Shown here in pieces: positions 6,386-19,657 of a stretch of DNA of 38,671 nt (within the stretch, counting starts at the first letter, position 1; every line of letters starts with the position of its first letter). Under the pieces are notes generated by a model. That model searched no databases, was not told where the DNA came from, and saw only the letters and a list, made by a program, of their open reading frames with translations. This DNA comes from Bacteroidales bacterium. GTDB lineage: Bacteria > Bacteroidota > Bacteroidia > Bacteroidales > UBA932. A program made the translations under genes and the position numbers. The stretch spans positions 1 to 38,671 of the forward strand of contig JABUTT010000126.1 of assembly GCA_021443515.1 (NCBI GenBank). Reading direction: 5' to 3'.

Positions 6386-7600
6386 CTATCTGAGTTTTAT
6401 CAGGAAACCAAGCCCCTGAGGCTGAGGCACAAAAGCGGTTATCGACCAGCCGTGAAGAAGTACGGCATTTTTTACGATGGACAGACCGAGACCCGAGCCC
6501 TGACTCTCGCTGCGGACGGTGCTGCTGCGCCAGAAACGCTCGAAGATATGTTCCAAATCCTCACTTGAAACCCCTCGTCCGGAGTCCCTGAAGACTATTC
6601 CTCCGTCCGGAGTCCCCTCTATCCTGACCTCAACCCCATCACCTGCATATTTCACGCTGTTTTCGAGAAGATTGCGGAAAATGGCATAGAGAAGCTGGCT
6701 GTTAGCCTCGATTTCGCATCCCTCAGGGATGTTGTTCAGGCACGACATCTTGTGCTCGGTCAAACGATCCGACATTTCGTCTATAATCTCGTCAACGACA
6801 GCCTTGAGGTAAAGTTTCCGGCAGGAGAACTGGGAAGGAGCCTCCTCCATCTTGGTCACAAGCGAAATATCCCTTATAAGGTCAGACAACCTGAGAGACT
6901 GCATATAGGCTCTTTCAGTGTAGAGTTTTCTCTTGTCCTGGGGACAGTCGGGATGGTTCACGAGAATTTCGAGATAACCTTGCAGGCCTGCCACGGGAGT
7001 CTTCAATTCGTGGGAGATATTACCCGTCATTTCGTGTTTTAGGCGACGTTTTTCATCTTCCTGGAGAGCCTTTTCAAGACTCTGGTGTTTATCTATGAGA
7101 ATATATATACTGAGAAGGGCCGCAAGCGCTATGGCTATAATTCCCGCAAGCAGAGGCCAGTCTGTCTGAAGAAAGTGCTGAAGATCCGCCTCGAATACCT
7201 GCGCCACACGAATTATGCCTCCACCCTCAGTTTTGCGTGCATAATATATATACGGAAGATCCGAAGTCTCAGACTTTCTCAGAGACAGACCCTTGCCCTT
7301 TTCGAGAGCCTCGCGTATTTCGGGACGGTCTGCGTGACTTGAGAGATTCACATCATAAGAATCGAAGATCACATTTCCAACGCTGTCGATGAGGGTGAGT
7401 CTCAAATCGGCGGGAAGGAAAGGCAGAAGGCTGTCGGGATGGTCAATCCTTTCCACCATCTCCACATATCCCTCCATCCTCGAAAGAATTATGGCCTTCT
7501 TCCTCGACTGCTCACTCCCTTTGTACAGAAGAAGTGAAGCCACGATAAAGATGGCAAAGACCACACAGATTCCGACTATGGTTTTGTTCTTAAGTGTCAT
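6386..7600 (-). CDS. Membrane sensor histidine kinase, PhoR-like
   Basis: This 404-residue kinase has a membrane helix at about 7-26, an extracytoplasmic sensor region of about 120 residues, a second helix near 148-169, a HisKA domain with NISHELKTPVAG (phospho-acceptor His197), and an HATPase domain with NLLENSVKYAG (N box), DSGRGV (G1), FERFWR (F box) and GSGLGLSIV (G2). I chose the ATG at 7600 rather than 7627 because it makes an ATGA overlap with the response regulator stop. It should autophosphorylate and pass phosphate to the regulator encoded just upstream. Being in one operon with a Na/Pi cotransporter suggests phosphate sensing (PhoR role), which is inference. The stop lies 24 bases from the promoter of the rplC operon. 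Confidence 0.92.
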   Translation of the reverse strand: MTLKNKTIVGICVVFAIFIVASLLLYKGSEQSRKKAIILSRMEGYVEMVERIDHPDSLLPFLPADLRLTLIDSVGNVIFDSYDVNLSSHADRPEIREALEKGKGLSLRKSETSDLPYIYYARKTEGGGIIRVAQVFEADLQHFLQTDWPLLAGIIAIALAALLSIYILIDKHQSLEKALQEDEKRRLKHEMTGNISHELKTPVAGLQGYLEILVNHPDCPQDKRKLYTERAYMQSLRLSDLIRDISLVTKMEEAPSQFSCRKLYLKAVVDEIIDEMSDRLTEHKMSCLNNIPEGCEIEANSQLLYAIFRNLLENSVKYAGDGVEVRIEGTPDGGIVFRDSGRGVSSEDLEHIFERFWRSSTVRSESQGSGLGLSIVKNAVLLHGWSITAFVPQPQGLGFLIKLR

Positions 7601-8280
7601 TTTACATCGAATTCGGGGTCTGCACAATAGCCAAAACCTGATTTATTCTTGATTATGTCACGATAGTCTCCGAGTTTGCCACGAATTCTTGCAATATGGA
7701 CATCTATCGTCCTGTCTATCACGTATGGGGTTTCCTTCCAGAGTTTGGCTATGATTTCGGAACGTGGGATGTAGGTTCCCGCATTTGACACGAGAAGTTC
7801 GAGCAGTTGGTATTCCTTGCGTGAAAGTTCAACTTCCTCTCCGCAAAGAGTCACGCTCGCCGTTTTTCTGTCTATTTTCAAAGGCCCGAGCGTAAGGCAA
7901 TCAGACTCGGAAGCAGCAGGTGCGCCACGCTTCAGTACAGCCTTTACTCTCGCCAAAAGTTCGCCTGTGGAGAAAGGTTTGCCGAGATAATCATCGCCAC
8001 CTGCCGAGAATCCTGTGAGTATGTCGTTTTCTGTCGTTCGCGCCGTTAGAAATATGATTGGAACATTATTGCCTTCTGCCCTGAGTTCCTTAGCCATCTG
8101 ATAGCCCGATTTGCCGGGAAGCATGACGTCAAGCAGGACAAGACTTGTCTCAGAAGAAATTTTCGTCAACGCCTCCTCTGCACTTGAAGCACATCCCACA
8201 AGATAGCCCGCGTTCTCCAGATTGAACGAGAGTATCTCCCTTATGTCGGCGTCGTCTTCTACTATGAGTATCTTCTTCAT
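7597..8280 (-). CDS. OmpR/PhoB-family response regulator
   Basis: The 227-residue protein has an N-terminal receiver domain with the acidic pocket VEDD (Asp9/Asp10), phospho-acceptor Asp51 in LLDVMLPG, Thr79 and Lys101 in GKPF, followed by a C-terminal winged helix (about 128-220) with ELSRKEYQLLELL and DVHIARIRGKLG. This is the PhoB/OmpR architecture. It overlaps its partner kinase by 4 bases and follows the Na/Pi transporter by 31 bases, so a PhoB-like role in phosphate control is likely but not proven. A separate -7-like TATCTTTG lies just before its start. Confidence 0.93.
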   Translation of the reverse strand: MKKILIVEDDADIREILSFNLENAGYLVGCASSAEEALTKISSETSLVLLDVMLPGKSGYQMAKELRAEGNNVPIIFLTARTTENDILTGFSAGGDDYLGKPFSTGELLARVKAVLKRGAPAASESDCLTLGPLKIDRKTASVTLCGEEVELSRKEYQLLELLVSNAGTYIPRSEIIAKLWKETPYVIDRTIDVHIARIRGKLGDYRDIIKNKSGFGYCADPEFDVK

Positions 8281-8296
8281 AAGCGCGTTCTCCGTT

Positions 8297-8304
8297 CAAA
8301 GATA
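8297..8304 (-). promoter_or_regulatory. Possible internal promoter (-7 element) before the response regulator
   Basis: The gap between the transporter and the response regulator holds TATCTTTG on the minus strand, a full match to the -7 consensus TAnnTTTG. No TTTG stands 19-21 bases upstream, so the -33 part is weak. If active, it would give a leader of only about 12 bases and allow the two-component genes to be made without the transporter. Confidence 0.4.
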
Positions 8305-8311
8305 ATAACTT

Positions 8312-9988
8312 TTATGATTTTTTGCCGAAGACTGCCTGGGATATGTTTATTATGTAGTCGCCCATTTCCTCAAGACGTTCAATAAGGTCGAGATAGAATA
8401 CACTCTCAAAATACTCCTCAGGATGTTCCTCAACTATCTTGAGCTGGGCATCGCGAAGTTCAGCCCTCCTCTCGTTGATTGCCTTCTCTGCCATTACGGC
8501 ATTATCTATATCGGTTATTTTTTCGCCGTTCTTGAGATTGTAAGACATTGCATCGTAGGCGTCGGAAATCAAAAGGAGCATAGACTCTATGTCAATTTTG
8601 TGGGCGTGAGAAAGGCTCTGGTGATGCTCCCTCGCTCTTTCGAGAAGCCTTCCTATGGCCTCTCCGCTGTCGCCAAGACTCTCCATCTCGCTGATTATCC
8701 TGTACATAGATCTGATTTTATCTTCAGAACCCTCACTCAAAGCGCTACGGTCAATATTGTTCAGGAAGGTTGCAATTTCATATTCTATGTTGTCGGCGAC
8801 CTCCTCATACTTTATGAGTTTCTCCTTCCATTTCGGAAAGTCGCTTTCGGAAGCATTTATTGCATGGCGAATATATTCCAAATCTTCCCTCACCACTTGA
8901 CCGAAATGCAGGATTTCCTTCTCCGCCTCAGTCACGGCAAGTTCCGGTGTTGAAATGGCGCCACCCTTTCCGATATACATGAGTTTAGGGCTGTCGTCAG
9001 CTTCATTTGCCCTCGGCTTGATGATGGAACAAACTATCTTTTCAATGAGAGGGGTAAACCATATCAGTATGCCCGTATTTATTAAATTGAAGACAGTATG
9101 GAGCATAGATATGCTGTAGAGCGGTGTTTGAGAGGTGCCGCCAAGACCTATGGAGTTTATTATCAGCGCTATCAGAGAAAGGAAAGGTTTGAACAGGCAT
9201 ATTGCCCACAAAACACCGAAGACATTGAATACCGTATGGGCAAAGGCGGCCCTGCGAGCGCTCACGTTACCCATAGAAGCGGCTATATTGGCGGTAATAG
9301 TCGTACCTATGTTTTCTCCAAGCACCATTGCCGCAGCCATATCGAACTCTATGTAGCCCATGTTGAGAAAGATGAGGGTGAGGGCAACTGTGGCGCTGGA
9401 CGACTGCAACACGATTGTCAGCAATGTTCCCACCGTTACGAAGAAAAGCACGGAAAATACGCCCTTCCCCGAAAAATTGGAGATAAAGGCCATCGCCTCC
9501 GGATTATGACCAAGATCCGGAATTGCGTTCTTCATAAAGGAAAGACCTATGAAAAGCAGACAGAAACCCACAACAGCCTCGCCTATATTGCGCATTCTGC
9601 CGCGTTTCGATATGCTCAGAAGAAAGCCTACTGCCATAAGAGGAACAGCAAGGGAGGCTATGTCTGCCGAAAATCCAAATATCGAAACTATCCACGCAGT
9701 CATGGTCGTGCCTATATTCGCGCCCATAATTACGCCTATCGCCTGTGTCAGAGTGAGAATGCCTGCACTTACGAAACTCACCACCATTACCGTCGTGGCG
9801 CTCGAAGACTGGATTGCAGCAGTCACACCCATACCGGTAAGCACCCCCTTGAATGGATTTGAGGTTATTGAAGCAACGAATTTTCTAAGCCCGGAGCCGG
9901 CTGCTTTCTGAAGTCCGCTTGAGAGCATATTCATTCCGAAAAGGAACATTCCGAGAGCTCCCAAAAGAGTTATAATCATCATTAACAT
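8312..9988 (-). CDS. Na/Pi cotransporter (NptA/PF02690 type) with PhoU-like C-terminal domain
   Basis: This 558-residue inner-membrane protein should import inorganic phosphate with sodium. Two inverted Na_Pi repeats are visible, each with the signature QSSSAT: one near residue 60 (AAIQSSSATTVMVV) and one near residue 195 (IVLQSSSATVALTL). About nine hydrophobic helices fill residues 1-320. From about 350 on, the sequence is soluble, helical and acidic, with paired helices like PhoU domains (EYIRHAINASE, EMESLGDSGEAIGR). The start could be Met1, Met3 or Met4 (ATG TTA ATG ATG). It is the first gene of a module with a PhoB/PhoR-like pair. Upstream lies a terminator-ended structured RNA and a TTAACA-type repeat array. 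Confidence 0.9.
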   Translation of the reverse strand: MLMMIITLLGALGMFLFGMNMLSSGLQKAAGSGLRKFVASITSNPFKGVLTGMGVTAAIQSSSATTVMVVSFVSAGILTLTQAIGVIMGANIGTTMTAWIVSIFGFSADIASLAVPLMAVGFLLSISKRGRMRNIGEAVVGFCLLFIGLSFMKNAIPDLGHNPEAMAFISNFSGKGVFSVLFFVTVGTLLTIVLQSSSATVALTLIFLNMGYIEFDMAAAMVLGENIGTTITANIAASMGNVSARRAAFAHTVFNVFGVLWAICLFKPFLSLIALIINSIGLGGTSQTPLYSISMLHTVFNLINTGILIWFTPLIEKIVCSIIKPRANEADDSPKLMYIGKGGAISTPELAVTEAEKEILHFGQVVREDLEYIRHAINASESDFPKWKEKLIKYEEVADNIEYEIATFLNNIDRSALSEGSEDKIRSMYRIISEMESLGDSGEAIGRLLERAREHHQSLSHAHKIDIESMLLLISDAYDAMSYNLKNGEKITDIDNAVMAEKAINERRAELRDAQLKIVEEHPEEYFESVFYLDLIERLEEMGDYIINISQAVFGKKS

Positions 9989-10421: not shown

Positions 10422-11312
10422 ATGTCAACATTCGATACTATACCCTGGAGATTTTCTTCCGCACTGCCCAAGAAGGATTACCTTCGCTCGGTCGGCCAGA
10501 ATATCATCCTTGTAAAAAAACCCTCTGTCCAGGCGCTAATAGGACAACCATTTAAGACAGGAAATTTTGCCTTTCTTCTTTGTACTAAAGGAAGCATAGT
10601 AGGCGAGATAAATATGGCAGAAAGAACACTTAACGGAGGCGGACTCATATTCATCCGTCCCGAACAGGTCGTGCAGTTCACATCCGTAAGTGAAGATTTT
10701 GAAATGCACCTTCTCGTAGCCTCAAAGGAATTTCTCTCAAGACTCGACATCCATATAACCGAAGTCCTGCCCGTAAAGTTTATCGGAAAGATGCAGGACT
10801 CCCCTATTATCAAACTCCAAAGGAGAGATGTCACAGACGTGCTTGCGATATTCAACCTCCTGTTCAGAGTGGCGATTAACGATGACAATCCTTTCCTTGA
10901 GAACACCATACTTAATGTGATGAGGGCTTTCTGCTATGAATCCGGCTACTACATAGTCCGCAACAATCCTGATGTGCTTATTCCGGAAAAGAATTCCATA
11001 GTGGAAAAACTCATTCCTCTGATTAAGCAGCATTTCCGCCAGCATAAAGACATAGGATATTATGCCGAGAAACTCAATCTCTCCCCTAATTATCTCTACA
11101 AACTGGTAATGACATCTTCGGGCAGAAGCGTGCGTGAATGGATTGAAGAATATGTTGTGACTGAAGCGAAGGCCCAACTGCGAAGCACAACCAAGTCCAT
11201 AAAGGAAATCTCCGACGACCTCAACTTCCCTTCACAAACCTTCTTCGGCAAATACTTCAAGCGAATCACCGGTACTTCCCCTAAGAAATACCGTGAAATG
11301 ATCGACAATTAG
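10422..11312 (+). CDS. AraC-family transcriptional regulator
   Basis: This 296-residue regulator has an N-terminal cupin-like sensing region (about 25-160) and a C-terminal AraC DNA-binding domain (about 190-293). The latter carries two helix-turn-helix parts, DIGYYAEKLNLSPNYLYKL and IKEISDDLNFPSQTFFGKYFKRITGTSPKKYR, the second matching the AraC signature closely. No signal peptide or membrane helix is seen. It is convergent with the six-gene operon at 11314-19599: the stop codons are only one base apart, with no hairpin between them. It is the closest candidate regulator of that operon, by position only. The ligand cannot be read from the sequence. Confidence 0.92.
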   Translation: MSTFDTIPWRFSSALPKKDYLRSVGQNIILVKKPSVQALIGQPFKTGNFAFLLCTKGSIVGEINMAERTLNGGGLIFIRPEQVVQFTSVSEDFEMHLLVASKEFLSRLDIHITEVLPVKFIGKMQDSPIIKLQRRDVTDVLAIFNLLFRVAINDDNPFLENTILNVMRAFCYESGYYIVRNNPDVLIPEKNSIVEKLIPLIKQHFRQHKDIGYYAEKLNLSPNYLYKLVMTSSGRSVREWIEEYVVTEAKAQLRSTTKSIKEISDDLNFPSQTFFGKYFKRITGTSPKKYREMIDN

Positions 11313-11313
11313 G

Positions 11314-12420
11314 CTATCTTATCCCGTATTTGCGGAGGATTTTGAGGACGGGCTTTTCGATGGATTTTGCCCAAAGGGAGTAGCCGTAACTGTTTGGATG
11401 GGTTCCATCCACGGTGTTGTCGTGGGAAACTGCGGCCTTGGGGGTAATCAGATAGACATCCTTGTAGCGAGGGTCTTTGAGAATGGCCTTGAACATCTCC
11501 TCCACAACATCCTCTTTTGCCTTGTCGAATTCATCTATTTCCTTTTCAAAACAGCGACATTCCTGATAAATGGTACGCTGGAAGATGAGAGGCTTGCCCG
11601 GATGAGCCTCAACCATTCTGTCGAGGAAAGGAATAAGACGCTCCCTTATCGTTTCGGCATCAGGATTCGAAAAAGTGTCGAAGATATAGGCATCAGCCTC
11701 GACATCTGCAAGTACATCCGCCATATAAGGCTGCATACGGCATCGTCCGCTCGTGGCGAGAGAAACAATCTGAAGCCCCGTATTGCGCATAAACTGCATT
11801 GGATAACTCATGCCTGCCCTGTCTGTGCCCACTCCCTGGGTGTAAGAAGAACCGTAAATTGCAATTTTATGACGAAATTCTGACTGCAAAGGCTCAATCA
11901 CAGCATCCGCATCCACTCCAATCTGACAGGAAAGCACCTCCGAATACATCGGCATATAGAGCATACACTCGTGCATCGTGCCGTCCATCGTGAATATGAG
12001 AGGAAAAGTTTCCTTTTTGTCACCGCGGCGGTAAGTCTTGCTTGTTCCGCTCGCTGCATACTGCCACTTGCCGTTTTCATCCTTTATGTAAAGGTCATAA
12101 CCCTTGTATGAAATAGGCATTGTGGATGTACCTCCATAAACATAGCCCCAGCGAGTTGTGACCTCTATGGCGCGGGTGTTTGTCTTGAAAAGGATTGCTA
12201 TGCCTGCCGAGCAACGTACCTGACGGTTTTCGGTGCGGTTGAAGCCCTTATATACGACAGTGTCAACCCTGTGGTAAGGGTTTGGAGTGTTCTCGAAAGC
12301 TTTTCCTATAAGATTGAGGGAAGAAGCCTCAACCCATTTGAGTTCCGACTGGGCATAAGAGGAAAAGTGAAGGCATAAAACTGCAAAAAAACTTAACAAA
12401 AAAGACTTGCGGACAGACAT
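11314..12420 (-). CDS. Exported GxDLY/SGNH-type esterase
   Basis: The 368-residue protein starts with a signal peptide (MSVRKSFLLSFFAVLCLHFSSYAQ). Residues of about 28-180 form a beta-rich N-terminal domain with the GYDLY signature of the GxDLY family. Residues of about 184-365 are an SGNH hydrolase: the nucleophile block YGSSYTQG (Ser192), the Gly in ATSGR, Asn in FSNP, and the Asp/His pair DGTHPN (Asp338, His341). The expected reaction is hydrolysis of an ester such as an acetyl or other acyl group on a carbohydrate, outside the inner membrane. It is the last gene of the operon, 13 bases after the phosphatase gene. Its substrate is not known. Confidence 0.85.
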   Translation of the reverse strand: MSVRKSFLLSFFAVLCLHFSSYAQSELKWVEASSLNLIGKAFENTPNPYHRVDTVVYKGFNRTENRQVRCSAGIAILFKTNTRAIEVTTRWGYVYGGTSTMPISYKGYDLYIKDENGKWQYAASGTSKTYRRGDKKETFPLIFTMDGTMHECMLYMPMYSEVLSCQIGVDADAVIEPLQSEFRHKIAIYGSSYTQGVGTDRAGMSYPMQFMRNTGLQIVSLATSGRCRMQPYMADVLADVEADAYIFDTFSNPDAETIRERLIPFLDRMVEAHPGKPLIFQRTIYQECRCFEKEIDEFDKAKEDVVEEMFKAILKDPRYKDVYLITPKAAVSHDNTVDGTHPNSYGYSLWAKSIEKPVLKILRKYGIR

Positions 12421-12433
12421 AAATAAGGAGATT

Positions 12434-13702
12434 TTAATTCAGCGGAGTGAGAAAGAGTTTTTTGAGGTCGGACCAGCGGTAGAGTCCCGGAGCGGCCTGC
12501 TCAAGAGGGAAGGTTGCCGGAACTTCGTTCATAAGGGCAAGAACGAGAACATTGTCGGCGGTGGCCTTTTTATGTTTCGGGCGGAAAAAGACTAACTGGA
12601 GATTTGCCGCCATAGGAGACATCAGGGCAACTGACCATTTTAAGGAAATTTCATCGGGATCGGTAAGACGCTCATCATAACCATTCATTCTCATCTGAGG
12701 CAAGAAGGCCATAATATCACCGTCATGTCCGAACCTTAAATCTGCGGAATTCGGATTGGTGCCGTCTATTGCGCCATCAGCCTTTGCCACGAAATCTTCT
12801 ATTAGTATCATCGAGTATTCCTGAGGATAACCTTTGGTGAGATGATGTGGCCCGCGTGAAGTGTAGAACCAGAGGTCTTCGGCAACCCCGTATGCGTCCA
12901 ACTGCTCAGGGGTGAACAAGTCCCAGAGGCGATGAGGCAGTTCGGTATTTGGCAGAGCCTTGGCTATTTTGAATAGTTCCTTGCCGAGAGAATGGGTGTC
13001 AACTCCTTTGAGATATTCCTTGTCCGAAAACAGCGGATCAATTATGTCTTTGCTGTTCACCCTTGCTCGAATAAGAGAATCATTCATTGCCTTCCAAGGG
13101 CCTGCAGCCATATAGTCGAGATATTCCTTACACATAGGGCTGTCGGGAAACTTGTAGAAGAAGTTCAGTATTCTTGTGTTGCGGTTGCTCGAAGATCGGG
13201 TTATGACTAAACGCGGATTATAGTCCCTGAGGGCATCGCAGGCAGAGGCCATGGAAAGCACACAGCGCACAATTATAGTACTTCGTGCATCGACTTTCGC
13301 AGATTTTGCAAAAATTTTAGGAAAGTTTGCAGCCATTCTCGAGGCAATTTCATAGTGCTGCCTCTCTCCAAGAGGAGTAAGTTCCCCTTCCCTGTCGAGA
13401 CCGTCCTTATAGCACTCACGGACTATTTCATAGACCTCCACGCCACGAGGAGTCAAAGCCCCTGCATTGTAGGCGTCTTCGAGAGTCTGATATGGCTTTG
13501 TATATTCCTCTTTTTCGAGCATCCACCTCGAGCCGTGGCGTCCGTAGTGGGATAGATAGAAGGCCTCATAACCCTTAGGCGCCTTTACCGAAAGGGCCTG
13601 AGGAGTCGGATAGAGATGGTATATTCCGCTGTACTTGTCTGATGCCTTCGCTGAGACTGCCCCGACAAGAAACAAGGCAAGGCCCAGCAAAAACCTATTC
13701 AC
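12434..13702 (-). CDS. Exported histidine-type (acid) phosphatase
   Basis: The 422-residue protein has a signal peptide (MNRFLLGLALFLVGAVSAKA) and the histidine phosphatase motif YGRHGSRW, with catalytic His56 flanked by Arg55 and Arg59. A second conserved site, RFGHDGDIM near residue 325, supplies the HD proton-donor motif. The family removes phosphate monoesters from sugar phosphates, phytate and inositol polyphosphates; the related inositol-polyphosphate phosphatase (MINPP) group is known in Bacteroides. The HD rather than HAE motif leaves the exact subgroup open. It overlaps the FAD oxidoreductase gene by 8 bases. Together with the metallophosphoesterase it gives the operon two exported phosphatases. 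Confidence 0.87.
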   Translation of the reverse strand: MNRFLLGLALFLVGAVSAKASDKYSGIYHLYPTPQALSVKAPKGYEAFYLSHYGRHGSRWMLEKEEYTKPYQTLEDAYNAGALTPRGVEVYEIVRECYKDGLDREGELTPLGERQHYEIASRMAANFPKIFAKSAKVDARSTIIVRCVLSMASACDALRDYNPRLVITRSSSNRNTRILNFFYKFPDSPMCKEYLDYMAAGPWKAMNDSLIRARVNSKDIIDPLFSDKEYLKGVDTHSLGKELFKIAKALPNTELPHRLWDLFTPEQLDAYGVAEDLWFYTSRGPHHLTKGYPQEYSMILIEDFVAKADGAIDGTNPNSADLRFGHDGDIMAFLPQMRMNGYDERLTDPDEISLKWSVALMSPMAANLQLVFFRPKHKKATADNVLVLALMNEVPATFPLEQAAPGLYRWSDLKKLFLTPLN

Positions 13703-15065
13703 CGAGATAGGCCCCGTCTTTAATCAGAGCCTTGCGGAGTTCATCTGTATTCACCTCAGATGGGAGGATGTTATGCAGGGTGCAGAGTCTTGCTGCCGTA
13801 CCTACTGCCTGGCCCATTGCCATACAGGTACTCATAACTCGGGTTGAGGCCATGGCTTCGTGGGTGGTAGAAGCGCAACGACCAGCAACGAGAAGCCCCT
13901 CTATCTTCTGAGGAACAAAGCAGCCGTAAGGTATGTCGTAACTTTCGTCGCAATAACGAAGTGTGCAGTCGCCTCCCTTCGGATGGTGCATATCCACAGG
14001 ATAACTTGCCACCAAAACCGCATCAGGGAAGCGGCGACATGTGAGAATATCATTTTCTGTAAGCACATATTTTCCTATCACACGGCGACTTTCGCGAATA
14101 CCCATAAACGAAGCGACTTTTTCAACCCACGCATTCTCGAAACCAGGAATGAACCTTTTGAGATACTCGGCAATCTGCTCATTCTGGCGGCGGGCTTCAA
14201 TCTCTCCGTGGGTGTAGGATGAAGGAGAAGTGGAATCGACTCCGCACACACGGCTCATGTTCACCCAAATCTCATCCTTTGCAAGGCCTGTGATGAGGAT
14301 GGTGCGGTCAACGGCTATTTTAAGACCTGCTGCACGAGCCTTGTTTATCATATCTCTGAAACCTACAATGATGAAGTTTTTGTCGGGACGGAAATACTCG
14401 TTCTTCATTATGTCTATGTCGAAAATCTCAGGATGATCGGCGACATTTTCTCTCAACTCTGCCACATTCACGCCCTTCATGCAGAACATAAGCGTAGGTG
14501 GCTGCATGCCGCCGTCCTCTTTGCTGCCTTTTTCGCAAATGGCGCCAGCATGGAAAGCCACATCACCATCTCCGGTGCAGTCTATGACGGTCTTTGCAAG
14601 AATGACCTGAGTTCCTTCCTTGCTCTCGATAACCACGCCCTTGATTCTGTCTCCGTCCATAATCACATTGCTGACAAAAACATACATCAGGACTTCCACG
14701 CCTTTTTCTTCCATAATTTCGAGAGCAATTGTCTTGACCTTTTCGCAATCAATCATCGTATGGGAAACGTGAAGGTCGCAAGGACGGTGAGGCGTAGCGG
14801 CATTCTGTGCCCTGAGACGGTCTATGAGGTTCTGGGGCATGCCCTGAATTATAGGCTTGCCTTTGCGGTCGAGAAAGGAGAGAATCGGCAGACCTATGGT
14901 AAGATTACCGCCGAGATAACCTCTGCTTTCTATAAGCATAACCTTTACTCCGGGAGCAGAAGCAGCCTCTGCGGCCATAATGCCGGAAGGACCTCCACCG
15001 ACTACGAGGACATCTACTTCGGCTCTAACAGGAATTTCACGAGAAGGAATAGTTATTGTTTTCAT
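13695..15065 (-). CDS. FAD-dependent oxidoreductase (PF12831 type)
   Basis: The chosen start at 15065 gives 456 residues beginning MKTITIPSREI; the track start at 15122 lies inside the transporter gene. An N-terminal FAD-binding Rossmann fold shows VLVVGGGPSGIMAA and the Glu of LIESRGYLGG. Further FAD contacts are VIDCTGDGDVAFHAGA near the middle and LLVAGRCASTTHEAMASTRVM near the C-terminus. These are features of the FAD_oxidored family. No signal peptide is seen, so it is cytoplasmic. Its substrate is not known. In this operon it sits between transporter and phosphatase, so oxidation of an imported polyol or sugar to a ketose is a reasonable inference. Confidence 0.85.
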   Translation of the reverse strand: MKTITIPSREIPVRAEVDVLVVGGGPSGIMAAEAASAPGVKVMLIESRGYLGGNLTIGLPILSFLDRKGKPIIQGMPQNLIDRLRAQNAATPHRPCDLHVSHTMIDCEKVKTIALEIMEEKGVEVLMYVFVSNVIMDGDRIKGVVIESKEGTQVILAKTVIDCTGDGDVAFHAGAICEKGSKEDGGMQPPTLMFCMKGVNVAELRENVADHPEIFDIDIMKNEYFRPDKNFIIVGFRDMINKARAAGLKIAVDRTILITGLAKDEIWVNMSRVCGVDSTSPSSYTHGEIEARRQNEQIAEYLKRFIPGFENAWVEKVASFMGIRESRRVIGKYVLTENDILTCRRFPDAVLVASYPVDMHHPKGGDCTLRYCDESYDIPYGCFVPQKIEGLLVAGRCASTTHEAMASTRVMSTCMAMGQAVGTAARLCTLHNILPSEVNTDELRKALIKDGAYLGE

Positions 15066-15078
15066 ATTATTATGTGTT

Positions 15079-16368
15079 TTATTTGGCAATTTGTGAAGGT
15101 TTTGGAGTTTCGGGATGAACAAGTTTTATGAGGCAGACGGAAGCGATGATGTGAAGACAGCCCATAATGATGAAGACCATACCGCCCATTGTGCTCATAA
15201 GATAACCCACTATGAGATTGAAAAGAGTTCCGCCTATAGCACCCGCGCCGCAGCAAATTCCGCTAACGCTTGCAACATTCTTCAATGGGAAGGACTCTGC
15301 AATGACAACCATGATAGTATAAAGCCAGGAGAGGCACATAACGGCAGTAAGGCTGAAGATGCCGATTATGAGATAGAGTCTCACATCAAAACTCAGCCCT
15401 GCGGCGTTTGAAACCAAAGGGGTGAGCATACACAGAGGAGCGAAGACCACAAGGGAAACCATCATAACCTTCCTCGCCTTGAGGGAAGGCATGCCACGTT
15501 TGACCATACTGTCGCTCCAGAAGCCTGCAAGCACACCGCCTATCGCCCCTATGAAGAATGGAATCCCTCCAACATACTGAATCATGTCGAGGGTCTCCTG
15601 ATGTGAGAGTCCCTGAGCCTGTCCCATATCGCGAAGGAAGCCCGGAAGCCAGAAGCAGCAGAAGTACCACACAGGGTCTGAGATGAGTCTCACAAGAAGG
15701 CAGCCCCAAAGAGATTTTGTTCCCCAGAGAGCGCCCCAGGAGAAGGCCGGTGCGGATTTTTTCTCGTCCGAGTCGGCGGATTCGGTTTCAACTGTGAGAG
15801 CAAGCACCTCTGCAGGAGGATTTTTATAGATAAAACACCAGAAAACGGCGATTACGAGACCTATTGCTCCGGCAACCATAAACACATCCTGCCAAGGAAG
15901 ATAACGCGACAACCAGGCAATGAGAAGAGGTGCCACGACCGTACCGATAGAACCTCCGGCCTGACAAATCGAGTTTGCAGTGGCTCGCTTTTTACGCTCA
16001 AACCACAAGGTTACGGCCACAATCTGACCTGCAAATATCGTAGGTTCGGCAAGTCCGAGCAAGCCTCGGCAGATGGAGAACTGCCATACGGTATTGGAAA
16101 GACCTCCTCCTATGCAGGCGAGGCTCCACACAACAATACCACCGAGGAGCACCTTTTTCGGTCCGAACTTATCCACAAGGATACCCGAAACAGGGTACAT
16201 TATCGCATAGCAGATAAGGAAAATGTTCACTATCCACGCATATTCAACATCCCCTATCCTGAAATGTTCAAGGATTTCCGGTTTGAGGATGGAAAGCAAC
16301 TGCCTGTCAAGATAGTTGCATATTATCGCAATAAAAATTGTGGCGACTATGTATATTCTTCTTTTCAT
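15079..16368 (-). CDS. MFS transporter, hexuronate/anion-cation symporter-like
   Basis: The 429-residue protein has about twelve membrane helices, beginning IYIVATIFIAIICNYLDRQLLS. The YLDRQLL segment after helix 1 and the loop DKFGPKKVLLGG between helices 2 and 3 match the ACS family that includes ExuT-type hexuronate and related sugar-acid carriers. GLAEPTIFAGQIVAVTLWF and FERKKRATANSICQAGGSIG are also typical. It should import a small organic substrate with protons or sodium. The kinase and FAD enzyme genes lie on either side with gaps of 9 and 13 bases, so it most likely carries their substrate. Confidence 0.9.
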   Translation of the reverse strand: MKRRIYIVATIFIAIICNYLDRQLLSILKPEILEHFRIGDVEYAWIVNIFLICYAIMYPVSGILVDKFGPKKVLLGGIVVWSLACIGGGLSNTVWQFSICRGLLGLAEPTIFAGQIVAVTLWFERKKRATANSICQAGGSIGTVVAPLLIAWLSRYLPWQDVFMVAGAIGLVIAVFWCFIYKNPPAEVLALTVETESADSDEKKSAPAFSWGALWGTKSLWGCLLVRLISDPVWYFCCFWLPGFLRDMGQAQGLSHQETLDMIQYVGGIPFFIGAIGGVLAGFWSDSMVKRGMPSLKARKVMMVSLVVFAPLCMLTPLVSNAAGLSFDVRLYLIIGIFSLTAVMCLSWLYTIMVVIAESFPLKNVASVSGICCGAGAIGGTLFNLIVGYLMSTMGGMVFIIMGCLHIIASVCLIKLVHPETPKPSQIAK

Positions 16369-16377
16369 CGAAAAAAT

Positions 16378-17952
16378 TTATTTACAAAGTTCAAGATAGC
16401 GGGCATAACGAAGGTCGAGAATTGCCTTGCGTTCTGCTCGAGGACAGTAGGTCTTGGCAATTGGAGATGAGAGGGCATTTTGGGCCGCAAAAATGTCGGG
16501 ATAGACGCCGGCAACCACTGCTGCGTGAATCACAGAACCAAGTACACAGCCCTCATTTGCAGAAACCACCGAGAGAGGCAGGCCTATGGTATCTGCCATA
16601 AGCTGCATAAGGAACGGAGATTTTTGGGATATACCTCCGACACCTATGAGACTTTCCACAGGGATACCGTTGGATGTAAAATGCTCCAGCACCCTCCTTG
16701 AAGCGAAGGCGAGAGATTCTCCCAAAGCATAGTAAATCTCAATAGGAGAAGTGCCCAAACGAAGGCCCTCGATACAGGCTGAGAGGTTTGGATTCGGATC
16801 GGGGGTGCGACGGCCGTTGAAATAATCTGTTGCTATCGGTGTTTTGTCGGTAGGGACTATTTTTTCTGCCTCCTTTCCGAGTGTGGCGAGAAGATTTTCC
16901 TTTTTATCCCTGCCCCAAAGAAGCAGATTCTGGAACCAGGCAAACACATCCCCAAAGGCAGAAAGTCCCGCCTCATAGCCCGTATATCCCGGAAGCATAG
17001 TATTCGCTCCCTGACCGAAAACTCCCGAAACAGGACTATGGCTTGTGCCTTTGCGAACAGCCATATAGCAGGCGGATGTTCCCATATTCAAAACCACCTT
17101 GCCATCGCCCACACCGCCTCCGATTGCTCCTGCGTAGGCATCTACTGCGCCTGCGCCAACCTTGACATGAGTGCCCAGAGAAAGCTTTTCAGCCCACTCC
17201 TGAGAGAGCGTACCAACACTTTCAAAGGCATTTTTGACTGTCTTTGGATAAGCCTCAACAATGCGTGGAAGATCAGGATGAATCGCCGCGAAGAATGACT
17301 GAGGAGGGTAACCGCCGGGGAGGGCAGAATCATAAAGTCCCTTAACCCTTGCGCAAGTTTCCCCAACGCACACTTTTGCAACATCCCTGACTCCCGTAAG
17401 TTCAGCGGCAAGATAGTCGCAAGCCTCAATTGCCGTTGTGGCAGCCGAAGTGACCGCAGGATTGGTTGAGACTATGTGAGCAGCCTTGCTCCAGAAGTTC
17501 TCCGGGCCGTAAAAACCTCCACTCTGATAGTGATATGATTTGTTTTTGCACAAACTCTCGATTTTTTCAGACTCGGAGGCTGCCGTATGATCTTTCCAAA
17601 GGATGAACATTGCATCGGGATCTTCGGCAAACTCCTTCCTCAAAGACAAAGGCCTTGCCTGAGCATCCACAAAACAAGGTGTGCTTGCAGTCACATCTAT
17701 GCCTATGGCCTGTATGTCGGCAGGATTAGGGGCAGAAGAAACAACCTCCCTAATAATTTTCTCCAGCACCTCCAAATAATCCAGGGGATGATGGCGGAAA
17801 CGAGCCTCGGAAACATCCGAATATCTGCCTTCCGCCCAACGAGGATAAGGTTCAGAAGCGCTCGCAAGGGTTTGTCCCGAAATGGCATCGGTAAGAGAGG
17901 CTCTCGCTGAATCCGAGCCGTAATCTATTCCTATTACTAATGGATTTGCCAT
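16378..17952 (-). CDS. araB: FGGY-family ribulokinase (AraB-like)
   Basis: The 524-residue kinase has the FGGY N-terminal phosphate motif VIGIDYGSDSARASL, the segment AIGIDVTASTPCFVD, the C-terminal ATP-side motif VVLNMGTSACYMAV, and the AraB-like stretch GYEAGLSAFGDVFAWF. The last is diagnostic for ribulokinases. It phosphorylates a ketopentose or pentitol, in the known case L-ribulose, with ATP. It is slightly shorter than enteric AraB of about 565 residues. No araA or araD is in the window, so the usual arabinose pathway is not encoded here. Known AraB enzymes accept several pentuloses and pentitols, which fits use with the FAD oxidoreductase. It starts 6 bases after the phosphoesterase stop. 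Confidence 0.85.
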   Translation of the reverse strand: MANPLVIGIDYGSDSARASLTDAISGQTLASASEPYPRWAEGRYSDVSEARFRHHPLDYLEVLEKIIREVVSSAPNPADIQAIGIDVTASTPCFVDAQARPLSLRKEFAEDPDAMFILWKDHTAASESEKIESLCKNKSYHYQSGGFYGPENFWSKAAHIVSTNPAVTSAATTAIEACDYLAAELTGVRDVAKVCVGETCARVKGLYDSALPGGYPPQSFFAAIHPDLPRIVEAYPKTVKNAFESVGTLSQEWAEKLSLGTHVKVGAGAVDAYAGAIGGGVGDGKVVLNMGTSACYMAVRKGTSHSPVSGVFGQGANTMLPGYTGYEAGLSAFGDVFAWFQNLLLWGRDKKENLLATLGKEAEKIVPTDKTPIATDYFNGRRTPDPNPNLSACIEGLRLGTSPIEIYYALGESLAFASRRVLEHFTSNGIPVESLIGVGGISQKSPFLMQLMADTIGLPLSVVSANEGCVLGSVIHAAVVAGVYPDIFAAQNALSSPIAKTYCPRAERKAILDLRYARYLELCK

Positions 17953-17958
17953 AATGTC

Positions 17959-19599
17959 TTAATGCATAAATACGTGGAAAGCCTTCGGGCGAACCATTGT
18001 CTCGGTGTGAGTGCGGCCGAAACGGTCGGTGACAGTGATGATGAGAGTGCTTTCCGCCTCAGAGGCCTGCACGGTGAACATGTGGTTCAATCGGGTGGAG
18101 GCAAACTTTTCCGGAACTTTGTCAGTGATTTTCGGCAACTGGTAGGCAAGGGTGAGCATAGGGTCTTCCACCCTTTCATGAACGACAGGAAGTTCCTTGC
18201 CGTTTTCGGTGACCGTTATCTTCCAGTCGGGTGCCCAGTCGAATACGTTGATATATACCATATTGTCCGGAATGTCGAGAATTTCGCCGCGGGCAGGATA
18301 TTTTTCAACAAGTTTCTGCCAAGCGTCATTTGACTTATAAACTTCTTTCACAACATTCATGTCGCAGGCACGGAAACTCAGGGTGACATCTTCTTCAAGA
18401 GCCCTCATCTCCCAATCCATATCGTTTCCATAAACATTGAAAACATTGTAGCCTGCAGGGCCGCCGTTAGGGCTTATGAGCTGACCGCCGTGATGACCAG
18501 TCTCCCACCAGCAACCTCCCAAGCTCACCGTATTATGCTCTGTTAGAGTCGGACTGACGTATGTAGTGTAATTCTGGTGGGTGTGACCCGTGAGGAAATG
18601 CACATTGTTGAAGCCTTCGAAGCAGTCCGCAAGTTCTTTGCTGTATTCAGGCTCCGAGAACCAACTTATGACCTGAACGGTTTCCCCCGAATAATGATAG
18701 GCAGGGCAATGCATACCAACGAAAACGGGGGCATCCTTGTCGCTCAGCGTGGCAAGGTCTTTTTTTATCCACTCCAACTGGTCAGCCGTCACCCTTTTGA
18801 TATAATTTCGTGCTCCTTTTATTCCCTTGAATTTCTTTCCTCCGGGCTCATTGAGATAAATCACGTTGTCGAGACTTATGTAGTGGGCCTTTCCTATGTT
18901 GAAACTGTAGTAGTTCGGTCCCATAGTCTTGACATAGCGGCGAGCCGAGGCAAAATCGGTTGAATCTCCGCATTGAACAGCCCCATCATTGTCGTGATTT
19001 CCTACGCAGGAATACATTTGAGAAGGATATTTCAGGACCTTCATAGTGTGTTTGAAAGATTCTATCGTATATTCGTCAGTGTACCAGAACATATCGAAAC
19101 TCGAGTCTCCGAGATTGTAGGTATAGACAGGTACGCTGCCCGCACGGGCAATTTCTCTTTTTACCGCCGCAGGAAAGAGGGCGCAGAACTGTTCACGGTC
19201 GCTATAACGGTCAGCAAGATGCATATCTGCCACCACAAGCAGCACATAATGGTCGTTATACACAGGCTTGAGAGAAAAATTCACGGTGTCAACCCCTACG
19301 CCTCCGACTTCACTCCAGAACAGAGGGAAACAACCGTCGGAAAGCGCCTCATAGCCTCTCGGAACACTCATAAACACCCAGCCGTTGCGCTTTGCAGAGA
19401 CTATTGCATATCGGCCGTCCTTGTCGGTTTTCACTACTTCGTCACCATCGCTCACGACAACTCCTTCCACAGGTTTGCCCGAAATATCGGTAATGGTTCC
19501 CACTATGGTTGGAACAGGTTTGGTATTTGTTTTCTTTGCAGATGCTCCAAGAGCAAAAGTCAGCAGAATGGCAATAGTTAAGAACAGAGTTTTCCTCAT
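17959..19599 (-). CDS. Exported calcineurin-like metallophosphoesterase with MetallophosN/C domains
   Basis: The 546-residue protein has a signal peptide (MRKTLFLTIAILLTFALGASA), then a carboxypeptidase-regulatory-like beta domain of about 30-110 (GTITDISGKPVEGVVVSD). A calcineurin-type catalytic domain follows at about 115-365, with metal motifs VADMHLADR, LGDSSFD, GNHDNDG, GMHCPAYH and TGHTHQNY. The C-terminal beta domain ends FGRTHTETMVRPKAF. This three-part layout is a Bacteroidota family (PF16371/PF00149/PF16370) of unknown exact substrate. As the first gene of the six-gene operon it probably cleaves a phosphodiester or monoester in the periplasm or outside the cell. Confidence 0.87.
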   Translation of the reverse strand: MRKTLFLTIAILLTFALGASAKKTNTKPVPTIVGTITDISGKPVEGVVVSDGDEVVKTDKDGRYAIVSAKRNGWVFMSVPRGYEALSDGCFPLFWSEVGGVGVDTVNFSLKPVYNDHYVLLVVADMHLADRYSDREQFCALFPAAVKREIARAGSVPVYTYNLGDSSFDMFWYTDEYTIESFKHTMKVLKYPSQMYSCVGNHDNDGAVQCGDSTDFASARRYVKTMGPNYYSFNIGKAHYISLDNVIYLNEPGGKKFKGIKGARNYIKRVTADQLEWIKKDLATLSDKDAPVFVGMHCPAYHYSGETVQVISWFSEPEYSKELADCFEGFNNVHFLTGHTHQNYTTYVSPTLTEHNTVSLGGCWWETGHHGGQLISPNGGPAGYNVFNVYGNDMDWEMRALEEDVTLSFRACDMNVVKEVYKSNDAWQKLVEKYPARGEILDIPDNMVYINVFDWAPDWKITVTENGKELPVVHERVEDPMLTLAYQLPKITDKVPEKFASTRLNHMFTVQASEAESTLIITVTDRFGRTHTETMVRPKAFHVFMH

Positions 19600-19619
19600 A
19601 GCGTTATCAGTTTTATGCG

Positions 19620-19657
19620 AGTTTTTAGAAGCCGTTTAATCGGCTTCTTACAAAACT
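19620..19657. promoter_or_regulatory. Long imperfect inverted repeat before the six-gene operon
   Basis: The core AGAAGCCG-N6-CGGCTTCT (19627-19648) is a perfect 8-bp stem. It extends through a small internal loop into AGTTTT pairing with AAAACT, giving 14 paired bases. No T-run follows in the minus direction, so it is a poor terminator for mutS2. It overlaps the candidate -7 element and the start of the operon mRNA, so an operator or 5' mRNA stem is more likely. Confidence 0.5.

Follow-up and report, generated by a model that had tools for sequence, protein, structure and literature searches.

We analysed a 38,671-nucleotide stretch of DNA from a gut or rumen Bacteroidales bacterium (contig JABUTT010000126.1 of assembly GCA_021443515.1; the whole stretch is called the window below), which contains an operon of six genes coding for a metallophosphoesterase (MPE), an AraB-like kinase (Kin), a major facilitator superfamily importer (MFS), an FAD-dependent oxidoreductase (FAD), a histidine phosphatase (HisP), and an SGNH hydrolase (SGNH). 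We propose, at a probability of roughly 45%, that this operon serves to recover carbon from a phosphorylated sugar alcohol (alditol phosphate). The features on which the proposal is built were read from the sequence: gene content, conservation, co-occurrence, the absence of araA, and the retention of the pocket core of the kinase.

Organization of the operon

The six open reading frames (ORFs) lie on the minus strand (11314-19599) and are transcribed in the order MPE, Kin, MFS, FAD, HisP, and SGNH, with intergenic gaps of 6, 9, 10, -8, and 13 bp (Table 1). A sequence-only reading of the window had described one operon with short gaps or overlap; this organization was upheld, and each of the six gene identities it had assigned was confirmed by Pfam. 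Its placement of MPE, HisP, and SGNH outside the cytoplasm and of FAD inside agreed with the N-termini, which were judged by eye with no predictor: signal-peptide-like sequences were recognised on the first three proteins and on neither Kin nor FAD. The start of FAD was taken as the ATG at 15068; the mechanical ORF extends to 15122. The host genome comprises 1.63 Mb in 251 contigs and is 93.6% complete.

Conservation of the kinase and FAD genes

A scan for the kinase in 84,980 species genomes gave as top matches 11 loci from Bacteroidales metagenome-assembled genomes (MAGs), at 45-47% identity. Most of them contained, beside the kinase, an FAD gene 59-64% identical to that of the window; some contained an MFS gene (63-67% identity) and many contained histidine phosphatases. 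In a sample of 400 genomes of the same genus, an FAD orthologue was found in 42 (FAD+ genomes), and all 42 carried an AraB-like kinase. The 21 genomes without FAD (FAD-) that were used for comparison yielded one partial Kin-like match (G394) and four kinases 41-42% identical to Kin, a level that AraB also shows; for three of them (G399, G409, and G413), araA was located on the same contig at a distance of ~3 kb or less. Kin and FAD were on the same strand and less than 200 bp apart in 28 of the 42 genomes and within 1.4 kb in four more, the window operon included; in one they were 2 kb apart on opposite strands, and in nine they were unlinked. Among 393 genomes of the order, the FAD orthologue was recovered at E<=1e-110 in its own genome alone, so that, as far as this sample goes, the module seems restricted to the genus.

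The neighbourhoods of Kin and FAD were inspected in 37 genomes, gene labels in relatives being assigned by BLAST to labelled queries and not by trees. The sequence-only reading had suggested searching other genomes for the six-gene set: the complete set was absent from all the other genomes inspected, and what recurred was the Kin-FAD core, most genomes holding Kin, FAD, and at least one phosphatase. Of the 37, 34 had near Kin or FAD a gene for a secreted phosphatase or diesterase of the HisP, MPE, EEP, or GDPD family. Densities per 100 kb were higher near Kin or FAD than far from them for HisP (5.0 vs 1.3), EEP (2.4 vs 0.2), MFS (2.1 vs 0), and SSS symporters (0.9 vs 0.2), the far set including loci fetched for AraD and Fe-ADH_2 and being biased toward GDPD and GlpT. 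Among 69 other loci with an AraB-type kinase, not one had a HisP, MPE, or EEP gene. One relative shows the module with exchanged parts, as a single run of GDPD-MPE-SSS-HisP-MPE-Kin-FAD-FAD (L177). In addition, HisP and MPE are fused in one genome (G475) into an exported protein of 957 residues with a single signal peptide, and in another (G412) this fused frame is cut off by the end of the contig; this fusion ties genes one and five of the operon together.

SGNH matches the structure 4lhs (E=9e-59). Since it neighbours the module in just two of the 37 genomes and showed no enrichment in density, we regard it as a local accessory that is not conserved with the module; the earlier suggestion that the substrate is esterified is accordingly weak and was not sustained.

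An ORF of 1020 aa containing both Kin and FAD was observed in one relative (L039:8992-12054, plus strand), as a true fusion or through a lost stop. Since the loss of one stop codon in a lone MAG contig would be enough to produce such a frame, it was not counted as evidence.

The kinase

Kin matches the structure 3qdk (E=4e-69). It passed the curated ribulokinase model PRK04123 (513 bits; cut-off 428) but not TIGR01234 (416 bits; cut-off 583), and its nearest named relatives are kinases of rumen Bacteroidales MAGs. In a tree of 101 kinases, computed in quick search mode and with the window Kin as a long branch, Kin grouped within 22 rows that come almost entirely from the same genus or from unnamed Bacteroidales. 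This group was split from the other 79 rows, which included almost all araA-linked kinases, by a branch with SH-aLRT support of 100%.

The residues A96, W126, K208, D274, and E329 are those that we take to contact L-ribulose in 3qdk. At these presumed contact positions W119, K204, D271, and E327 were invariant (39-40 of 40 Kin and 47 of 47 AraB sequences), and the position of A89 in Kin was occupied by G or A. Two pocket positions changed consistently, L330 and F312, which are Gln and Cys, respectively, in 47/47 AraB. Because the pocket core is kept while these two residues differ, the substrate of Kin is likely related to that of AraB, but altered. Judged on these alignments and the tree, Kin has a ketopentose-type pocket core within a clade apart from the AraB of arabinose operons.

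araA, araD, and sugar alcohol phosphate genes

The gene araA (PF02610, on which all genome-level counts of araA rest; the separate AraA probe used for loci was an Escherichia coli sequence) was absent from the whole host genome. It was found in 0/42 FAD+ and 9/21 FAD- genomes (p=1.2e-5) and, among genomes at least 90% complete, in 0/20 and 4/7 (p=0.002). The sequence-only reading had held both araA and araD to be absent. This was right for araA; for araD it holds in the window, but the host genome carries the gene on another contig (C10), downstream of a GDPD gene, and its product passes the NCBIfam AraD cut-offs NF006047 and NF009003. AraD without araA was found in 29/42 FAD+ vs 2/21 FAD- genomes, AraD mostly accompanying araA in the latter. 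A strong match (E<1e-20) to Fe-ADH_2, a glycerol-1-phosphate-dehydrogenase-like protein named AraM in Bacillus, was present in 42/42 FAD+ vs 7/21 FAD- genomes.

Several gene clusters place these genes with others for polyol phosphates. The host genome contains an Fe-ADH_2-GlpT pair (C69), and the relatives contain Fe-ADH_2-AraD-GDPD (G485), mannitol phosphotransferase system (PTS)-AraD-PtsI (G647), HisP-Fe-ADH_2 (G713), and MPE-Fe-ADH_2 (G554). Two loci are broader: L051 joins GDPD, mannitol-1-phosphate dehydrogenase, Fe-ADH_2, GlpT, and Kin, and L040 joins Fe-ADH_2, GlpT, GDPD, a mannitol-type PTS, PtsI, Kin, MFS, and EEP. The AraD, GDPD, GlpT, Fe-ADH_2, and mannitol-PTS genes that surround the module in relatives point to polyol phosphates, and the theme shared by these clusters is that of sugar alcohols and their phosphates. 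The earlier proposal that a phosphorylated polyol or pentose is salvaged is supported in part, by the conservation of Kin-FAD with exported phosphatases and a transporter, the missing araA, and the polyol-phosphate context, but not as regards the literal six-gene set.

Some of these genes would also suit another explanation, in which the substrate is a glycerophosphodiester or phospholipid head group that holds glycerol phosphate, and Kin handles another polyol that is released. GDPD, GlpT, and glycerol-1-phosphate-dehydrogenase-like genes occur with Kin or AraD in several relatives and in the host genome, the modelled fold of MPE resembles GpdQ and Rv0805, and contig C21 of the host carries SusC/SusD with GpsA-like and GlpT-like genes. 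However, the GDPD, GlpT, glycerol-1-phosphate-dehydrogenase-like, and C21 genes all lie outside the window operon, and glycerol phosphate requires neither Kin nor AraD. We consider this explanation unlikely.

Other loci of this kind were also noted. On contig C10 of the host (L234:695-10220), SusC, SusD, a BACON/fn3 protein, GDPD, and the sole AraD of the genome are found together. Contig C21 (L235) contains, besides SusC/SusD and the GpsA-like dehydrogenase and GlpT-like transporter, two exported FAD_oxidored paralogues and a metallo-beta-lactamase-fold lipoprotein; its gene content suggests that it serves a glycerol-phosphate compound. In Apibacter and a Tannerellaceae MAG (L050, L052, L053, and L054), Fe-ADH_2, a HAD-IIA phosphatase, AraD, and AraB stand beside GlpF with no araA nearby, and these loci also carry GlpABC or transaldolase/transketolase where read. 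Secreted proteins with no Pfam match were observed beside EEP, Kin, or exported FAD genes: L040:8067-8990 and L193:12231-13052, which look alike, and perhaps L235:4839-5849.

Phosphate genes and other neighbours of the operon

Just past the AraC-family gene downstream of the operon, the window contains a row (6386-9988) of a Na/Pi symporter with a PhoU-like tail (Na_Pi_cotrans, 8312-9988), a PhoB-like regulator (7597-8280), and a PhoR-like kinase (6386-7627). The regulator narrowly missed the PhoB equivalog cut-off (262.5 vs 270 bits), and the kinase was clearly below the PhoR cut-off. This row could tie the operon to phosphate control, and it favours the view that the operon chiefly harvests phosphate from organic phosphates, the use of carbon being secondary. 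An FAD enzyme and a sugar kinase would be superfluous for such a harvest, yet they are the most conserved pair, and we hold this view to be of low probability.

The AraC-family gene itself, a feature beyond those in the sequence-only reading, is a candidate regulator of the operon by adjacency only. The inverted repeat found upstream of MPE may form a leader hairpin, serve as an operator, or mark where the transcript of mutS2, which lies upstream, ends; promoter and terminator scans gave nothing decisive.

Table 1. Features of the operon and its surroundings, with the fused HisP-MPE frames of relatives; positions are those of the window unless a locus is named.
Feature	Position	Strand	Evidence
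MPE, exported calcineurin-like phosphoesterase (MetallophosN-Metallophos-MetallophosC)	17959..19599	-	Pfam PF16371/PF00149/PF16370
Kin, AraB-like FGGY kinase, separate clade	16378..17952	-	PRK04123 but not TIGR01234, 3qdk match, tree, pocket
MFS importer	15079..16368	-	Pfam; nearest D-galactonate/organophosphate subfamilies
FAD, cytoplasmic FAD-dependent oxidoreductase (FAD_oxidored), proposed alditol dehydrogenase	13695..15068	-	PF12831 E=6e-117
HisP, exported histidine phosphatase branch 2, MINPP-like, HD motif; GTG start	12434..13702	-	BtMINPP homology
SGNH, exported GxDLY-GDSL hydrolase, accessory	11314..12420	-	PF14607/PF14606
AraC-family regulator, convergent on operon end	10422..11312	+	PF12833 E=1e-19
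Perfect 8-bp inverted repeat AGAAGCCG-ATTAAA-CGGCTTCT, upstream of first gene (MPE)	19627..19648	-	fold z = -3.6
HisP-MPE natural fusion frames	L162:3468-6341 and L165:2-1762	-	

The secreted phosphatases

The metal-ligand motifs of MPE (D125, D165, GN201H202D, H297, and H339/H341) were invariant in six homologues. Its predicted fold was closest to the phosphodiesterases Rv0805 and GpdQ; the model, made from six sequences, is mediocre (pLDDT 72), and these matches are suggestive only.

HisP contains the branch-2 RHGxR motif (YGRHGSRWM). Like the exported MINPP of Bacteroides thetaiotaomicron (BtMINPP, BT4744; PDB 4fdt/9qyw), with which it is homologous over nearly the whole length (residues 21-414, E=5e-52), it is predicted to be secreted; it differs in being located in a kinase-FAD operon and in its proton-donor motif, LRFGHD replacing the HAE of BtMINPP. 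The homology would fit the use of inositol phosphates (phytate), in which HisP would be a phytase of the MINPP type and inositol would be processed by FAD and Kin, and EEP genes, whose superfamily includes inositol-phosphate phosphatases, are common near the module. Against this, HD stands in place of HAE in all 40 HisP homologues of these loci, the pocket core of the kinase is of the ketopentose kinase type, and the links to AraD, GlpT, and mannitol PTS have no place in known inositol catabolism. Inositol phosphates, which the sequence-only reading had counted among the fitting substrates, are thus disfavoured, and we judge them very unlikely. Most improbable is that L-arabinose or another free pentose or pentitol is used without AraA, the phosphatases beside it serving some other purpose: L-ribulokinase is the closest match of Kin, AraD is present in the host genome, and a yeast has a known route from arabinose that passes through arabitol (PMC10398940), but phosphatases recur beside Kin-FAD in most genomes and are missing from the other AraB-type loci, and an aldo/keto reductase gene is near the module in 16/37 genomes only and at the window operon not at all.

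The FAD oxidoreductase and points against the proposal

MFS genes 62-68% identical to that of the window adjoin Kin or FAD in relatives. A second FAD copy was observed in several relatives (L043-L049, L172, L187, L192, and others) in a run of FAD-HisP-polyferredoxin-aldo/keto reductase with 4Fe-4S, divergent from TlpA-Kin-FAD; this run is a possible set of electron-transfer partners.

The following points weigh against alditol-phosphate salvage. The AF2 model of FAD has a pLDDT of 92, and a structure search with it returned generic flavoproteins only (best TM 0.51). Since the family has no close solved relative, and structure and literature searches found no characterised close one, the role of FAD as alditol dehydrogenase is proposed from gene context. 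MPE and GDPD genes were not enriched in density near Kin or FAD. AraD did not differ in frequency between FAD+ and FAD- genomes (29/42 vs 11/21, p=0.27), and it was not found in 13 of the 42 FAD+ genomes, so that L-ribulose-5-phosphate cannot be the sole product unless the assemblies are incomplete. The presence of Kin in 42/42 FAD+ genomes was counted by similarity (41-50%) and not by placement in the tree. Finally, the genomes are related to one another and are drafts, many of them MAGs 75-99% complete, and the p-values (Fisher) treat them as independent, which overstates their independence.

Discussion

In the pathway that we propose, MPE would open a phosphodiester outside the cytoplasm, and HisP, acting as a phosphomonoesterase, would take off the remaining phosphate and free the alditol, which MFS would bring into the cell. 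In the cytoplasm, FAD would oxidise the alditol to a ketose and Kin, derived from AraB, would phosphorylate it. If the product were L-ribulose-5-phosphate, it would be converted to D-xylulose-5-phosphate by the AraD encoded elsewhere in the genome; were it D-ribulose-5-phosphate, it would pass straight into the pentose phosphate pathway. Of the arabinose pathway, the araB-araD end would be retained, with an oxidation in place of the araA end. The order of these steps, the reaction of FAD, and the substrate are what we infer from the features described above.

Ribitol, derived from ribitol-phosphate polymers or fragments of them, would be the simplest alditol to fit and the leading candidate, because both its NAD-independent oxidation to L-ribulose, reported for acetic acid bacteria (Adachi 2001 as cited in PMC9171043), and the phosphorylation of D-ribulose by AraB in vivo (PMC12307932) are known. 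The data do not single it out, and arabitol or other alditols may be used instead. Teichoic acid is a natural source of ribitol phosphate, and this ribitol phosphate, named in the sequence-only reading, is a possible substrate. More specifically, the operon may represent a Bacteroidales system that eats alditol-phosphate polymers, for example the ribitol-phosphate teichoic acids of Gram-positive neighbours, by means of a secreted diesterase and phosphatase, import, a new flavin-dependent class of alditol dehydrogenase, and an AraB-derived kinase feeding AraD, the arabinose pathway being in this way turned over to sugar alcohols. This version is tentative and rather doubtful; no account of such a system came up in searches of the literature.

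The proposed system resembles several known ones in part. With the L-arabinose operon (araBAD; araMPRDAB in Bacteroides, PMC4666351) it shares an AraB-type kinase, an AraC-family regulator beside the operon, and AraD, here encoded elsewhere in the genome; it differs in the absence of araA from the genome, in the separate clade of its kinase, and in having an FAD oxidoreductase and secreted phosphatases instead. The araM of the Bacteroides operon codes for a mutarotase (PMC4666351). The proposed logic of transporter, alditol dehydrogenase, and pentulose kinase is that of ribitol/arabitol operons (Klebsiella type; Sphingomonas RDH operon, PMC7343156), but here a PF12831 flavoprotein would replace the SDR/MDR NAD dehydrogenase, the kinase would derive from AraB, and secreted phosphatases would be added. 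The NAD-independent ribitol dehydrogenase of acetic acid bacteria catalyses the reaction that is proposed here for FAD; it is described as membrane-bound and of another type, with no kinase or phosphatase operon. The Apibacter and Tannerellaceae clusters (L050-L054) likewise combine AraB and AraD without AraA; in these, which lie beside the polyol channel GlpF, the dehydrogenase Fe-ADH_2 replaces the FAD enzyme, secreted phosphatases are lacking, and the kinase belongs to the AraB side of the tree.

If the proposal is true, one branch of FAD_oxidored (PF12831), a large family of which little has been characterised, would gain a function, and so would a clade of AraB-like kinases labelled ribulokinase by annotation pipelines. 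The proposal would also explain the presence of araB- and araD-type genes without araA in many gut and rumen Bacteroidales, and would point to sugar-alcohol phosphates as a food of these bacteria.

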